Virus record (IMG/VR): IMGVR_UViG_3300021373_002869
Coordinates: 1 to 25,508 of that record
Source of the DNA: a virus
DNA length: 25,508 nucleotides
Strand: one strand, 5' to 3'
Below are positions 1 through 25,387 of the stretch, in pieces. The notes under the pieces are model-generated. The model made no database searches and was not told where the DNA came from. It saw only the letters and a program-made list of their open reading frames with translations. The translations under genes and the position numbers were made by a program. The first letter of the stretch is position 1. Every line of letters starts with the position of its first letter.

Positions 1-262
1 CGTTATTGTCTGGCAATATATCTGCCCAACTAAGCCCCACTGCGCTTAAAATATCCGCATTGCTGCACTGATACGCCATACAATTTAAGACCGGTGCCCC
101 ACCCTCGCCCATGCCTATCTTTAGGCTCTGCCCCTCGCCCTGGTGAACTGGGCACCTGCAACTATACTGCGGCGCTCCATTCTTCGGCGGTCCTATCTTG
201 GCGTTGGGATCAATCCTATATGCCAAACCTTCCAGCGTTATCTTGCTCGCTCTTTTTGTCAT
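1..262 (-). CDS. Primase-helicase N-terminus, second copy, cut by window edge
   Basis: The first 87 codons of a primase gene, reading leftward off the window. The encoded protein is identical to residues 4-90 of the primase at 23501-25387, but the DNA differs at 107, 143, 164, 167, 188, 206, 218 and 227. All eight are synonymous third-codon positions. It holds the N-terminal zinc-ribbon cysteines. Its start overlaps the stop of the upstream HTH gene: two consecutive ATGs at 265-260 around TGA 264-262. The absence of amino-acid change suggests it belongs to an intact gene beyond base 1, not to a decaying fragment. If the genome is circular this may simply be a variant of the right-hand copy. 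Confidence 0.85.
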   Translation of the reverse strand, partial: MTKRASKITLEGLAYRIDPNAKIGPPKNGAPQYSCRCPVHQGEGQSLKIGMGEGGAPVLNCMAYQCSNADILSAVGLSWADILPDNN

Positions 263-453
263 CATTGCAACCACCCGTAAATTGTACTTGCGTGCCGGTC
301 CAACTGCCTGCCGATCTGCTCATAAGTTAAGCCCTCGCCCCGCAACTCCCGCGCCTTTTTTATCTCAAAAACCATTGCGGGCCTTGGCATCCTGCGCGCC
401 TTTTTTGGCTTTTGTATAAAAACCGGCACGTCTTGGTAGTAGCTCTTATCCAT
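262..453 (-). CDS. Small helix-turn-helix protein
   Basis: A 63-residue basic protein. The C-terminal half (ELRGEGLTYEQIGRQLDRHA followed by STIYGWL) is a homeodomain/resolvase-like helix-turn-helix, with 'LTYEQIGRQL' as first helix and 'HASTIYGWL' as recognition helix. I chose ATG 453 over the upstream ATG at 468 because GAGG lies 8 nt before it and it overlaps the methyltransferase stop (AATGGATAA). The stop overlaps the primase start, so it looks translationally coupled between methyltransferase and primase. It probably binds DNA, but no partner can be named. Most of the protein is the HTH, so it could be a regulator or a recombinase-like fragment. Confidence 0.7.
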   Translation of the reverse strand: MDKSYYQDVPVFIQKPKKARRMPRPAMVFEIKKARELRGEGLTYEQIGRQLDRHASTIYGWLQ

Positions 454-1351
454 TGTTAAACCTCGCATTTAATATTTGCCACGCCTTAGCCGCTGTCGCA
501 GGAACTACTCCGTTCCCCAGAAGCCTAAGTCGGTCCACCCTGTGCTGAGTCCCATTAGTTGCTCCACCCAATCCGGATTGAGCTTCGGTGACCCTTGGTT
601 CTTCCCACTCGTATTGCTCTTCTTCTGGTCTTGCAGGCCATTCATCTGATTCAAGTCTCTCCCCAAGCACTTCTGATTGCTCTCCTTCGCAGTTCTCGCT
701 CCCTCGATGTGGTCGCTCGCTTGTGGAGTTGCCCAAGTGTGAACATCCGTAATTAACATTCGTTGCTTGCTGTGTGGGCGCATTCCATTTTGCTTGCAGT
801 CCTGCGCTTGTGGTGTACTCCAACCTTTTTGCAAGGATGAAGACTCGTTTCCTTTGGTGTGGAGCGCCAACTTCACGCGCGCTAAATATTCCCCACGTTG
901 TTCTATAACCATCTTTTTCCAAGTCGCCAATGACGTCTCTGAGTCCGAGGCTAATATGTCCTTCGACATTTTCAAAGAAGACCCTAGAAGGTCTAATTGC
1001 TTGTGTATGTCTCCGAATAATTGGCCAAAGATGTCTGGGATCGTCTGCCCCCGCTCTCTTACCTGCCGCGCTGAACGGTTGGCAAGGGTAGCCGCCAGTG
1101 ATAATGTCAACTGCGCCTCGAAATAAGTGCGCTGGGAAGGTTTTAAGATTCGACCAAATAGGTGCCGGAGCCAACTCTCCCGCTTCCATCTTAGCGACCA
1201 GGTTTGCAATGGCGAAGGCTTCGATCTCCACATAAGCGATGACTCGATGTTTAACCCCGGCAAGGTCAAGTCCTCGCTCGATTCCAGCGTATCCGCTGCA
1301 AAAACTGATGACGGTTGGTAGTTCTTCGGTAGTATCCACATTTATTTCCAC
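446..1351 (-). CDS. C5-cytosine DNA methyltransferase
   Basis: About 301 residues with the ordered motifs of C5-cytosine methyltransferases: motif I 'FCSGYAGIERGL' (17-28), the catalytic PCQPFSAAGKR loop (Cys90), ENV at 127-129, QRKR at 166-169, a target-recognition stretch at about 180-265, and a motif X-like C-terminus (RLRLLGNGVVPATAAKAW). It would methylate cytosine in phage DNA, most likely to evade restriction; no partner endonuclease is visible. The longest start is a GTG at 1351 with its SD directly adjacent. A GTG at 1339, within an ATGTG, shares the better-spaced GAGGG and may be the real start. The specificity is unknown. A second long ORF overprints it (505-1341). Confidence 0.9.
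   Translation of the reverse strand: MEINVDTTEELPTVISFCSGYAGIERGLDLAGVKHRVIAYVEIEAFAIANLVAKMEAGELAPAPIWSNLKTFPAHLFRGAVDIITGGYPCQPFSAAGKRAGADDPRHLWPIIRRHTQAIRPSRVFFENVEGHISLGLRDVIGDLEKDGYRTTWGIFSAREVGAPHQRKRVFILAKRLEYTTSAGLQAKWNAPTQQATNVNYGCSHLGNSTSERPHRGSENCEGEQSEVLGERLESDEWPARPEEEQYEWEEPRVTEAQSGLGGATNGTQHRVDRLRLLGNGVVPATAAKAWQILNARFNNG
505..1341 (-). CDS. Overprinted ORF inside the cytosine methyltransferase gene
   Basis: An open frame of 278 codons in a different frame on the same strand as the methyltransferase. Its ATG (1341) directly follows the TAA of the upstream gene (TAAATG), with GAGGG 9 nt upstream, a better start than that of the methyltransferase frame. The protein begins MWILPKN. 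It contains 'SWLRHLFGRILKPSQ' and 'RGEYLARVKLA', two W-S/A-TPQA-x-D repeats (about 174-178 and 204-208), and ends near LNPDWVEQLMGLSTGWTDLG. From memory, phage proteins with this W-TP-x-A-x-D plus LNPxWVExLMGxPxGW pattern recur beside or inside such methyltransferase genes; I could not check this by search. Function unknown. The alternative is a conserved but untranslated by-product of the methyltransferase sequence. Confidence 0.6.
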   Translation of the reverse strand: MWILPKNYQPSSVFAADTLESSEDLTLPGLNIESSLMWRSKPSPLQTWSLRWKRESWLRHLFGRILKPSQRTYFEAQLTLSLAATLANRSARQVRERGQTIPDIFGQLFGDIHKQLDLLGSSLKMSKDILASDSETSLATWKKMVIEQRGEYLARVKLALHTKGNESSSLQKGWSTPQAQDCKQNGMRPHSKQRMLITDVHTWATPQASDHIEGARTAKESNQKCLGRDLNQMNGLQDQKKSNTSGKNQGSPKLNPDWVEQLMGLSTGWTDLGFWGTE

Positions 1352-1554
1352 CCTCTATTCTTCATAAAATCCGCCAATATGGTATTGGCTGAAATGCACG
1401 CGCTGATATAGCTAATTGCCGATTCCTCGTCGCTCTTTTCCGTCAACATATTTAGCGCATTGCTATAGGTTATCGCCTTGGGGTCCCCAAACGCGTTGCT
1501 TGCTATTACTCTGTGATGCTGCCAGGCCTCATGCCCTCGTAATTTGTGTGGCAT
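1342..1554 (-). CDS. Small protein of unknown function
   Basis: A 70-residue protein, mildly basic at both ends, with a predicted helical middle (AITYSNALNMLTEKSDEESA) and no membrane segment. I do not recognise a family. ATG 1554 is preceded by GGGAG about 6 nt away, inside a repeated leader unit shared with the next upstream gene. Its stop TAA abuts the ATG of the overprinted ORF at 1341, so it belongs to the leftward early operon leading to the methyltransferase locus. The good ribosome site and tight spacing support it as a real gene. Confidence 0.6.
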   Translation of the reverse strand: MPHKLRGHEAWQHHRVIASNAFGDPKAITYSNALNMLTEKSDEESAISYISACISANTILADFMKNRGWK

Positions 1555-3558: not shown

Positions 3559-3891
3559 TTATCGGCGCTTTGGTTGGTACTCTAAGTGCAGATGATTCCC
3601 TTCATCTATTAAATCGAAGTCGCAATTCAGCGCCGCCTTTATCTCATTAAATACTTGGCTCATGCCCTTGAATCGCTCGCCGGTCATCTGGTCGGTCGTG
3701 CGTATATCTAACGCTGCCCCGGTGTAATGCAATGACGTTGTAGTGTGGTGTACGCCCTGCTCGCTGCCTGAGGTTATCACGCAATTAAGCCCGAACTTGT
3801 CAAAGCATGGGACCACTGTCCCCGCGACAATCATCGCCAGCTCTGGATTCAAGCCGTTTAACTCAACGCTGTCGTCTTTAATGATTAGCAT
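3559..3891 (-). CDS. Endolysin, M15-type peptidase
   Basis: A 110-residue protein with the zinc-peptidase signature of the M15/VanY group: S-L-H-x-x-G-x-A-x-D at 53-62 (His55, Asp62 as zinc ligands) and HLH at 100-102 (His102). These enzymes cleave peptide bonds in peptidoglycan, so it probably lyses the host wall. There is no signal peptide, so export would need a holin. Its ATG overlaps the stop of the fibre gene (TAATG). It is the last gene of the leftward late operon, just before the terminator. It is a bare catalytic domain with no wall-binding region. No clear holin lies next to it. Confidence 0.85.
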   Translation of the reverse strand: MLIIKDDSVELNGLNPELAMIVAGTVVPCFDKFGLNCVITSGSEQGVHHTTTSLHYTGAALDIRTTDQMTGERFKGMSQVFNEIKAALNCDFDLIDEGNHLHLEYQPKRR

Positions 3892-21683: not shown

Positions 21684-22331
21684 TTATATCAACGCTTGCT
21701 GTGCTGTTGCTTGTTTAAATCGCTCGCACGCCGCTTCATAATAGTCTTTGTCCAGCTCACAACCGACAAAATTAAAGCCGCCATAATGCGCTGCTATTGC
21801 GCTGCTGCCGCTGCCTAAATGCGTATCAAGTATCCGGTCGCCTTCTTTGGCGTATTTAGATAGGAGCCAATCATATAGTTGTACAGGCTTTTGGCATGGG
21901 TGAATATCTGTGCCTCTTAGTTTATTATATTTATCCGTGGCTCCCCATTCATGCCGATAATAAACTACTTGCTGTAATCTGCTGTAGCTGGCTATCTCAC
22001 ATCTGCTCATATTTGGGTTCATAACAACCTTATCCCATACTATAGAGCCACCCTTTCCATCTACCCATTGATAGTAGTTGCTGCCCCATATAATGCGCTC
22101 CCTACTAACTCTAACTAGCTCATTAAAATATTTTACATCTGGCGCTTTATTATTCCATGTATATGCTTTGTGCTTTCCAACAGAAACCCCTTTACTGTAG
22201 CTCTTTGTTGGATTGAAATTACCTATCCCATACGGCGGATCAACAATAGCCAACTCAAATGCATTATCTTCAAGCCCTGCCATATACTCCATGCAATCGC
22301 AATTTAATAACTCTATATTAGGCGCTGCCAT
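21684..22331 (-). CDS. N6-adenine/N4-cytosine DNA methyltransferase
   Basis: 215 residues from ATG 22331. The catalytic motif DPPYG is at about 31-35, and the SAM-binding motif comes later ('DTHLGSGSSAIAAHYGGFNF'), the order of the beta class. 'IIWGSNYY' and 'HPCQKPVQLYDWLL' are usual in phage adenine-type methyltransferases. It methylates A or C in a site that cannot be read from sequence, probably protecting phage DNA from host cutting. The longer frame to 22430 lies over the upstream gene; GGAG 9 nt before ATG 22331 decides the start. This is the second DNA methyltransferase in the window. Confidence 0.88.
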   Translation of the reverse strand: MAAPNIELLNCDCMEYMAGLEDNAFELAIVDPPYGIGNFNPTKSYSKGVSVGKHKAYTWNNKAPDVKYFNELVRVSRERIIWGSNYYQWVDGKGGSIVWDKVVMNPNMSRCEIASYSRLQQVVYYRHEWGATDKYNKLRGTDIHPCQKPVQLYDWLLSKYAKEGDRILDTHLGSGSSAIAAHYGGFNFVGCELDKDYYEAACERFKQATAQQALI

Positions 22332-22533
22332 TGCTGATATTCTCCATTTTACTTGCTCGACATTCTTGGCACCAATACATGCGCCGTATTGGTCGCATTT
22401 CCACAACGTAATAATCAACACGCCTATCACGCGATAATCTCAGCGCAAACCTGTTGGCCTCGCTCTCGCTGTGTGTTGTCATATGTATCACGTTGTTATC
22501 GGCATTCACCACGCCATACTCTGCGCTAATCAT
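22318..22533 (-). CDS. Small protein of unknown function
   Basis: 71 residues (MISAEYGVVNADNNVIHMTT...). 'SEANRFALRLSRDRRVDYYV' is a charged helix-strand element, and a C-terminal WCQECRAS pair of cysteines stands out. I do not recognise a family. ATG overlaps the stop of the upstream gene (ATGA), AGGG lies 7 nt before it, and its stop overlaps the methyltransferase start by 14 bases, so it is probably translated in this tight early cluster. Confidence 0.55.
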   Translation of the reverse strand: MISAEYGVVNADNNVIHMTTHSESEANRFALRLSRDRRVDYYVVEMRPIRRMYWCQECRASKMENISNGSA

Positions 22534-23500: not shown

Positions 23501-25387
23501 CTAGTCTTGCGTGTTTCTCGACCAAAATTTGGCGTTTTTTTCCATACCTTTCGACAATATAAAGCGCTCCCCAGCGTACTTTTTTAGCACCTTCTCGGCC
23601 TGCCTGCGACTAATACCATGATCGACCCGCAACGCCTTTAATAAGTCGCTGCTCTTAACCTGCCCCTTGCCCAGCTCTAACCATATCGCCTCAATGGTCG
23701 AATCATTCTCCAGCGCAAACTTCTCGTTATTGCGCTTTTGGGCTATATCAATGTATTCATCTAAAAACTCGATCTGGCGCGTCTTGCCGTTTATCTTTAT
23801 CGTAATGTCCTCGCGTATGCCTCGGCACTTTTCCTCGCGTGTGCTCAATAACCACTCGTCCACCTTCTCGCCTGGCTTGCGGTCCATGTCTAAGTATAGC
23901 AAAACGTCGCAATCGCTCTTGAGATCGCCTGTGCCCTCGTAAACGTGTAGCCCTGTCTCTTTGTCGGCGTACTTGTTTGTATGCCCCAAAAGCACAACGG
24001 TAGCCCCTTTGCCGCACATACTGCGCAACATATCATACAACTTGGCACCGCTGCTCTTATTAAGCACGTCGGTCATTTTTTTGAGCGTGTCAAATATCCA
24101 TATTTCATCGGCAAACGATTGGCCCGCTGCTGCCCGCTCTGTAATGTCGGCAACGATCTGGCGCATTGACTTACCATCACGCAAGTCGGGCACTAGGTAG
24201 TCAATACGGTCAAACACCCCCGCCTCGTGCATCCGTATGGCGTAATCCTTGGCCGCCCCGGTGCTTATATCTGCATTAACATAGGTCACTCGCAAGTCGT
24301 TGCGCTTTGCCAACCTTATCGCGATATGCTCCATTACGGTCGTCTTGCCCGCTCCAGGCTCCGCAATGATCGCATTAATCATGCCCTTGATGATCAGATT
24401 ATCGACTACCCACTCGCTGTCCTCTAACGCCAAAAACTCGTCTAGCGTGCACTTGTATTGGGCCTTCCAATCTTCTTCGACCACCTCGCCGCGCTCCACC
24501 GCTGTCGGTATCTCGTCGCCCTGCTCATAATAGTCGTTGATGTCGCCGTTGGGCGTGTGGATGCGCTTGTGGGCCTCAAACTCGCGTTGCCCTTCGTCGT
24601 TGCCCTCGTATAATTCCACGACCGTTGCGTGTGTATACTTGGCGACAATCGCCGCTATTTCTCTCTGCTTTGTAGCAGTGTTACCAAACAACACAGCCGC
24701 ACAACCAACGTTAAGCGCCACACAAGCCGTTACCGCTGTTGCCCAACCTTCGCTCACAACAATATATTCGCTGATCGTTGGATTGCCTATGAAGAATACC
24801 CCATGCGGGCCAAAACCCTTCTTACCGCCTTTGCCGGTCCGAGCGATAAACTCGGCCCCAACAAACGCCCCTGTCTCGATGCTATGCCTGGGCACTATCA
24901 AGCACTGCTTGCCGCCCATGCGCCCAGGCTTGCCCACTCTGACGTCGCCAGTGTCAATAAACGCGTCTTCCATCGTGCGCTGAAACTTGGCTATAAAGTA
25001 AGGATGCGCTGCTATAGCCTCGCCATCGCTCGAGCCTTTCAAATACTCGGCCTCGGCGTATGGCGTGTTATCGTTAGTAACTGGCCGCTCAATCACCCTT
25101 GGCGCTATTGGCGTCACGTTATTGTCTGGCAATATATCTGCCCAACTAAGCCCCACTGCGCTTAAAATATCCGCATTGCTGCACTGATACGCCATACAAT
25201 TTAAGACCGGTGCCCCACCCTCACCCATGCCTATCTTTAGGCTCTGCCCCTCGCCCTGATGAACTGGGCACCTGCAACTGTATTGCGGCGCTCCATTCTT
25301 CGGTGGTCCTATCTTGGCGTTTGGATCAATCCTGTATGCCAAGCCTTCCAGCGTTATCTTGCTCGCTCTTTTTGTCATTTTTTGCAT
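23501..25387 (-). CDS. Primase-helicase (zinc ribbon, TOPRIM, RecA-like ATPase)
   Basis: 628 residues. An N-terminal zinc ribbon is built from Cys38, Cys40, His43, Cys64 and Cys69. A TOPRIM-like region follows (about 205-285; 'YIVVSEGWATAV' gives the Glu, 'EGNDEGQ' the acidic loop). A RecA/AAA_25-type ATPase has Walker A 'AEPGAGKTT' (342-350), Walker B 'IWIFDT' (429-434) and 'LLGHTNK' (466-472), with a winged-helix-like C-terminus (575-625). It should prime and unwind phage DNA. The first Asp of the usual TOPRIM DxD is a Gly here. ATG 25387 follows GGAG by 8 nt; ATG 25378 is an alternative. Confidence 0.88.
   Translation of the reverse strand: MQKMTKRASKITLEGLAYRIDPNAKIGPPKNGAPQYSCRCPVHQGEGQSLKIGMGEGGAPVLNCMAYQCSNADILSAVGLSWADILPDNNVTPIAPRVIERPVTNDNTPYAEAEYLKGSSDGEAIAAHPYFIAKFQRTMEDAFIDTGDVRVGKPGRMGGKQCLIVPRHSIETGAFVGAEFIARTGKGGKKGFGPHGVFFIGNPTISEYIVVSEGWATAVTACVALNVGCAAVLFGNTATKQREIAAIVAKYTHATVVELYEGNDEGQREFEAHKRIHTPNGDINDYYEQGDEIPTAVERGEVVEEDWKAQYKCTLDEFLALEDSEWVVDNLIIKGMINAIIAEPGAGKTTVMEHIAIRLAKRNDLRVTYVNADISTGAAKDYAIRMHEAGVFDRIDYLVPDLRDGKSMRQIVADITERAAAGQSFADEIWIFDTLKKMTDVLNKSSGAKLYDMLRSMCGKGATVVLLGHTNKYADKETGLHVYEGTGDLKSDCDVLLYLDMDRKPGEKVDEWLLSTREEKCRGIREDITIKINGKTRQIEFLDEYIDIAQKRNNEKFALENDSTIEAIWLELGKGQVKSSDLLKALRVDHGISRRQAEKVLKKYAGERFILSKGMEKNAKFWSRNTQD

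Follow-up and report, generated by a model that had tools for sequence, protein, structure and literature searches.

Two overlapping genes at a phage cytosine methyltransferase locus, probably encoding the two subunits of one enzyme

Introduction

When two long open reading frames cover nearly the same stretch of DNA, are both of them genes, and if so, do their products belong together? The question is raised by a cytosine methyltransferase locus in a viral sequence of 25,508 nucleotides (IMG/VR record IMGVR_UViG_3300021373_002869, positions 1 to 25,508), referred to here as the window. A preliminary description of this DNA had pointed to a 278-codon frame overprinting the methyltransferase, and had supposed that if both are made, they would be two unrelated proteins, possibly sharing an ATGTG start region. 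We call the methyltransferase frame alpha and the overprinted one beta. Both are genuine genes, conserved and under purifying selection. The locus very probably encodes one two-subunit m5C DNA methyltransferase in two overlapping frames, co-initiated at ATGTG and methylating phage DNA.

Organization of the Locus

Both frames are in the list of open reading frames, on the minus strand; beta is read in the +1 frame relative to alpha and spans some 93% of it. The parts of the locus, all on the minus strand, are as follows.

446-1351, minus strand: alpha frame as listed among the open reading frames, 301 codons from a GTG
449..1339, minus strand: alpha, predicted catalytic subunit of an m5C DNA methyltransferase, 297 aa when started at GTG1339; stop codon at 446-448, alternative GTG at 1351
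505..1341, minus strand: beta, overlapping gene in alpha's +1 frame, 278 codons from an ATG; stop at 505-507
1337..1341, minus strand: ATGTG double start, the beta ATG (1341-1339) overlapping the alpha GTG (1339-1337)
1351..1355, minus strand: GAGGG, Shine-Dalgarno-like and probably serving both starts, as seen in the sequence and in homologues with a G-rich block at -11 to -7
1079..1087, minus strand: alpha motif IV, PCQ, with the catalytic Cys86; invariant in 60 sequences
965..973, minus strand: alpha motif VI, ENV; E123 and N124 invariant in 60 sequences
845..856, minus strand: alpha motif VIII, QRKR; R163 and R165 invariant in 60 sequences
500..517, minus strand: alpha motif X, GNGVVP; G275 and N276 invariant in 60 sequences
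799..822, minus strand: beta module 1, WSTPQAQD, at the target recognition domain (TRD) position, in a region of beta-led constraint
712..735, minus strand: beta module 2, WATPQASD, a pattern match
526..582, minus strand: beta putative motif IX, LNPDWVEQLMGLSTGWTDL; L262, M263 and G264 invariant in 62 sequences

A small open reading frame (265-450, minus strand; MDKSYYQDVPVFIQKPKKARRMPRPAMVFEIKKARELRGEGLTYEQIGRQLDRHASTIYGWLQ), whose product resembles a helix-turn-helix protein, sits between a primase-like gene and the methyltransferase pair.

Both Frames Are Under Selection

Beta is found in alpha's +1 frame at all 159 homologous loci, 80 of which were fetched by a search with alpha alone and carry beta without exception. 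Its openness was compared with a null in which the alpha protein is held fixed and its synonymous codons are shuffled 500 times. In the window, the shuffled +1 frame has a mean of 108 codons, a 99th percentile of 239 and a maximum of 260, so that the observed 278 codons exceed all 500 shuffles; the remaining frame, with 39 codons, is ordinary. Over 99 non-redundant loci, the median +1 open run is 287 codons versus a shuffle mean of 103 (p<0.002 in 92 of the 99), and the same shuffles reveal no excess openness in the remaining frame. Taken alone, the open length of beta would be modest evidence, and it is conservation and selection that settle the matter.

Selection was counted in 33 independent homologue pairs by classing each isolated difference according to its effect in both frames. 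In this simplified count, which is not a full likelihood model, the dN/dS-type ratios for beta are 0.15 for NN/NS (95% bootstrap 0.12-0.19) and 0.28 for SN/SS (0.23-0.34), versus 1.85 and 1.14 in the third frame used as a control, which is not under purifying selection. Third-position differences in alpha amount to 0.142 within the overlap and to 0.36 in the short tail past beta's stop. The preliminary description had suggested looking for constraint in both frames across homologues, and had allowed that the second frame might turn out to be a mere shadow or to be broken by stops. Instead, it is open in the homologues and selected beyond what a shadow would give, and the two long overlapping frames are real.

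The constraint is not evenly spread. Over alpha residues 1-75 both frames are constrained, beta's N-terminal 75 residues strongly so (ratios of 0.16 and 0.12). Over motifs IV-VIII the constraint is led by alpha (0.06-0.12) and is weak in beta (0.37-0.69), whereas at the TRD position it is led by beta (0.05-0.09) and weak in alpha (0.37-0.64). At the IX-X end, it bears on both frames. A selection confined to the C-terminus of beta was considered and ruled out, since the N-terminal 75 residues are constrained too and weakness is limited to motifs IV-VIII. With the alpha protein fixed, the identity of beta to the window is 0.69 at the N-terminus (null 0.36), 0.48 in the middle (null 0.32) and 0.67 at motif IX (null 0.29); in the stretch at the TRD position, which is too variable for good alignment, it is 0.22 versus 0.15.

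Motifs Missing from Alpha Appear to Lie in Beta

Alpha is a C5-cytosine DNA methyltransferase (PF00145, E 3.5e-30 in Pfam). Its profile matches M.HhaI with an E-value of 5.6e-24, aligning over motifs I-VIII only, and Foldseek matches to its model are m5C methyltransferases. As PF00145 membership demands, motifs I, IV (PCQ), VI (ENV), VIII (QxRxR) and X are all present, and PCQ (C86), the EN of ENV (E123-N124), RxR (R163/R165) and GN (G275-N276) are invariant in 60 alpha sequences. In the same 60 sequences the TRD region is variable, and a pattern search did not find motif IX in alpha's frame. The AlphaFold model of alpha has a confident catalytic fold at residues 1-175 and is confident again at about 270-296, with a helix near the end; residues 176-265 have a pLDDT below 50, with no folded TRD. 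In a PF00145 member, the chain should also include a TRD and motif IX. That of alpha does not, and both appear to be in beta.

Beta has no match in Pfam or NCBIfam. It does match phrog_1008 ("DNA methyltransferase") with an E-value of 1.6e-25, as does the beta of Paenibacillus phage Diva (1.1e-73), which means that beta open reading frames have already been clustered in PHROG 1008; the label is silent on their encoding inside another methyltransferase gene and on the role of the protein. Two copies of W-TP-x-A-x-D, at residues 174 and 203, stand at the TRD position and are followed by LNPDWVEQLMGLSTGWTDL, in which LMG does not vary across 62 sequences. The preliminary description had seen repeats of both W-TP-x-A-x-D and LNPDWVEQLMG in this frame; the former occurs twice in beta, the latter just once. 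Among homologues, the number of WxTPxAxD modules per beta is mostly 1-5, with a spacing of about 35 residues, and beta length correlates with the module count (r 0.73) and with alpha length (r 0.94). The AlphaFold model of beta is poor (mean pLDDT 52.7), and a search of solved structures with the beta profile returned nothing, no solved m5C enzyme included. The TRD and motif IX assignments thus rest on motif pattern, position and frame-swapped relatives.

These relatives are found in actinobacteria and actinophages. Motif X is directly preceded by the same motif IX (for example RLSPAFVEWLMGLPAGHVTD), in alpha's own frame, in Streptomyces, Actinomadura, Gordonia phage Trax and Mycobacterium phage Graduation. 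No other finding argues as strongly for reading beta's tail as motif IX. Four actinobacterial loci (L219, L220, L222 and L223) have their WxTP modules in the +1 frame and motif IX in alpha's frame, which indicates that the motif moved between frames during evolution. When a profile of the IX-X segment is compared with the PDB, the best methyltransferase match is weak (E 0.15) and is to a solved plant-type DNA methyltransferase. The LNPDWVEQLMGLSTGWTDL segment of beta reads as the missing motif IX of alpha.

Since beta carries what alpha lacks, namely the modules at the TRD position and motif IX, the two look like subunits of one m5C methyltransferase, and the idea of two unrelated proteins is probably wrong: the parts are complementary. 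It is improbable that beta, though truly made as an overlapping protein, has a task of its own, such as that of an anti-restriction or regulatory factor, next to an alpha that is a complete enzyme. Beta's lack of a Pfam match and the strong, otherwise unexplained constraint on its N-terminal 75 residues are what such a separate job would have in its favor. It would leave alpha without motif IX or a foldable TRD, while the WxTPxAxD modules and motif IX fall in beta exactly at the position missing from alpha. It also sits badly with the actinobacterial relatives that hold motif IX in alpha's own frame, and with the 159 loci, none of which was seen to have beta without alpha.

Probable Initiation at the ATGTG Site

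The start context reported for beta in the preliminary description is present in the sequence, with TAAATG and, 9 nt upstream, GAGGG. The alternative GTG at 1351 lies inside this Shine-Dalgarno, just one codon downstream of a TAG, which makes GTG1339, inside ATGTG, the likely start of alpha. An [A/G]TGTG start is found in 92 of 93 close loci (87 ATGTG, 5 GTGTG), with a G-rich block at -11 to -7, and in 46 close loci no codon other than that GTG could start alpha past the in-frame stop that comes before it. The shared start put forward earlier is probably right.

In E. coli, AUGUG and GUGUG sites can start both frames (Kohl et al.; PMC9841429), and at AUGUG both frames are translated at DtoStart 12/14, in vitro and in vivo (PMC9841429). 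We measured the Shine-Dalgarno spacing by ungapped alignment to UAAGGAGG in the 80 loci with a recognisable Shine-Dalgarno. The commonest alignments give a DtoStart to the beta start of 12 (12/14) in 26 of these loci and of 13 (13/15) in 21. The spacing thus suits a double start in many homologues; the GAGGG of the window has a long one, with a DtoStart of about 18, outside the spacings tested in E. coli. More distant relatives have other starts: ATGAATG in Acinetobacter phage ABMM1, and a beta start inside alpha in Paenibacillus phages. In this host, alpha and beta are probably co-initiated from ATGTG.

A single chain could also be imagined, in which ribosomal frameshifting would lead from the N-terminal half of alpha to the TRD and motif IX of beta and back to motif X. 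Judging from motif order, reading frames 0, +1 and 0 would indeed restore the single-chain succession of I-VIII, TRD, IX and X. Two shifts would be required, however, and beta has its own conserved start and Shine-Dalgarno; moreover, a shift near motif VIII would leave the selection on beta's N-terminal 75 residues (0.16 and 0.12) unexplained. We regard this reading as less probable still than a separate job for beta. Weakest of all, to the point of being hardly credible, is a frame shadow, in which beta would be a by-product of alpha's composition and not be made: the +1 frame is naturally rather open with alpha fixed (a window mean of 108 codons), and in most segments a shadow would share an identity of 0.29-0.36 with beta, but the synonymous-shuffle nulls and the dN/dS-type ratios with their third-frame control rule it out, the double start is conserved, and the motifs fall where alpha itself is unconstrained.

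A Model for a Two-Subunit Methyltransferase

The pair is most likely an obligate two-subunit methyltransferase built like M.EcoHK31I, to judge from the analogy in motif layout. Alpha would fold as the AdoMet-binding catalytic domain (motifs I-VIII) together with the motif X helix, and where single-chain enzymes hold the TRD and motif IX, it would have a weakly constrained, disordered-looking stretch. Beta would supply the missing parts, with its WxTPxAxD modules at the TRD position and then motif IX. One Shine-Dalgarno would recruit the ribosome, and the ATGTG would divide initiation between beta (ATG) and alpha (GTG), which would let a single site deliver both subunits at a set ratio. The two would then assemble and methylate phage DNA, probably evading host restriction. 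Heterodimer formation, methylation and protection against host restriction are what we infer. A further idea can be held only tentatively, and we stop just short of favoring it: that the conserved AUGUG double start yields, from one ribosome-binding site, two long proteins that are obligate enzyme halves, and that beta's variable modules (mostly 1-5) are exchangeable target-recognition units, the phage changing its methylation specificity through repeats that have to remain open in both frames.

The window pair shares several traits with known systems. In M.EcoHK31I too, the second polypeptide comes from another frame of the same gene; Lee, Kam and Shaw (1995) reportedly described the two EcoHK31I genes as sharing much of their length in different frames. 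M.EcoHK31I (YGGCCR) is a natural split m5C methyltransferase of two polypeptides (PMC3404938; PMC3439449); its large subunit holds motifs I-VIII and X, its small subunit motif IX (PMC3404938). By motif layout the window pair is similar, alpha having I-VIII and X and the second polypeptide a putative motif IX. The TRD of M.EcoHK31I is predicted in the large subunit, whereas constraint in the window places TRD-like modules in beta. The beta of the window also shares its starting point with alpha, by way of ATGTG, and extends over about 93% of it, unlike the shorter EcoHK31I beta of 176 aa. M.AquI (CYCGRG) is likewise an m5C methyltransferase in two polypeptides, but its split is sequential, with IX and X both in the small subunit, whereas in the window X stays with alpha.

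With regard to initiation, the likeness is to the AUGUG/GUGUG sites of E. coli (pqiA, tamA, narQ), where starts overlap by one base and share one Shine-Dalgarno (PMC9841429). The alternative frames of pqiA and tamA are short peptides (PMC9841429), whereas both frames of the window are long, conserved and selected. In Paenibacillus phage Diva, an overlapping pair (DIVA_49/DIVA_50) is annotated, the inner one as "g49 internal gene" without a proposed function; Diva's beta starts inside alpha, and the window's at alpha's start. In the literature searched, we found nothing on overlapping phage methyltransferases beyond the EcoHK31I and AUGUG papers. Compared with known two-part enzymes, the near-complete overlap, the shared double start, the TRD-like modules in variable number and the wide, mostly unannotated distribution are new.

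If the model is correct, the locus would clearly illustrate how an AUGUG site can yield two functional long proteins; the 2022 E. coli study anticipated dual products from AUGUG and demonstrated them with short alternative peptides (PMC9841429). It would also be a multi-domain enzyme whose parts are spread over two reading frames of one DNA stretch, constraint alternating between these frames, and predictions of methylation specificity made with alpha by itself would overlook the part that probably determines it.

Distribution and Annotation

The overlapping arrangement is common to hundreds of viral and bacterial genomes, and usually only one of the two genes is annotated. It is found in phages of Paenibacillus, Acinetobacter, Salmonella, Stenotrophomonas, Synechococcus, Microcystis and Mycobacterium. 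Among 80 bacterial loci that the alpha profile retrieved, a strict-pattern motif IX stands in the +1 frame in 56, which is not an unbiased rate since the profile was built from overlapping members; these belong to Verrucomicrobia, Alphaproteobacteria, Firmicutes, Bacteroidota and others. The four actinobacterial loci are those of the 80 with motif IX in alpha's frame. The beta HMM score was dropped as sole proof in distant loci: a single-chain Staphylococcus enzyme (L168) gives a weak +1 match of 24.8 bits, and for this reason the motif IX pattern was used instead.

Annotators call alpha only (as in E. coli), beta only or occasionally both (as in Diva), and if the model holds, it would correct a broad annotation gap, with related loci in phages and in bacteria of many phyla. 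Beta alone is annotated in Synechococcus phage Ssp-JY39 (L167) and in Sphingomonas (WP_239025738.1; L160).

Other Features of the Window

A second DNA methyltransferase, of the N6_N4_Mtase family (PF01555, E 1e-15), is encoded at 21684-22430 (minus strand), and the phage thus has at least two DNA methyltransferases; the window genes examined include no restriction enzyme. At 3559-3891 (minus strand) there is a small protein with a marginal match to a Hedgehog-signal domain (PF01085, 22.0 bits for a cut-off of 22.1); it is likely a peptidase belonging to the lysis or tail region of the phage. The ends of the window (1-262 and 25117-25378) form an imperfect direct repeat, with 106 identical bases and about 97% identity over 262, which spans the start of a primase-helicase-like gene. 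The repeat suggests that the genome is circular or permuted and that strains differ at the join.
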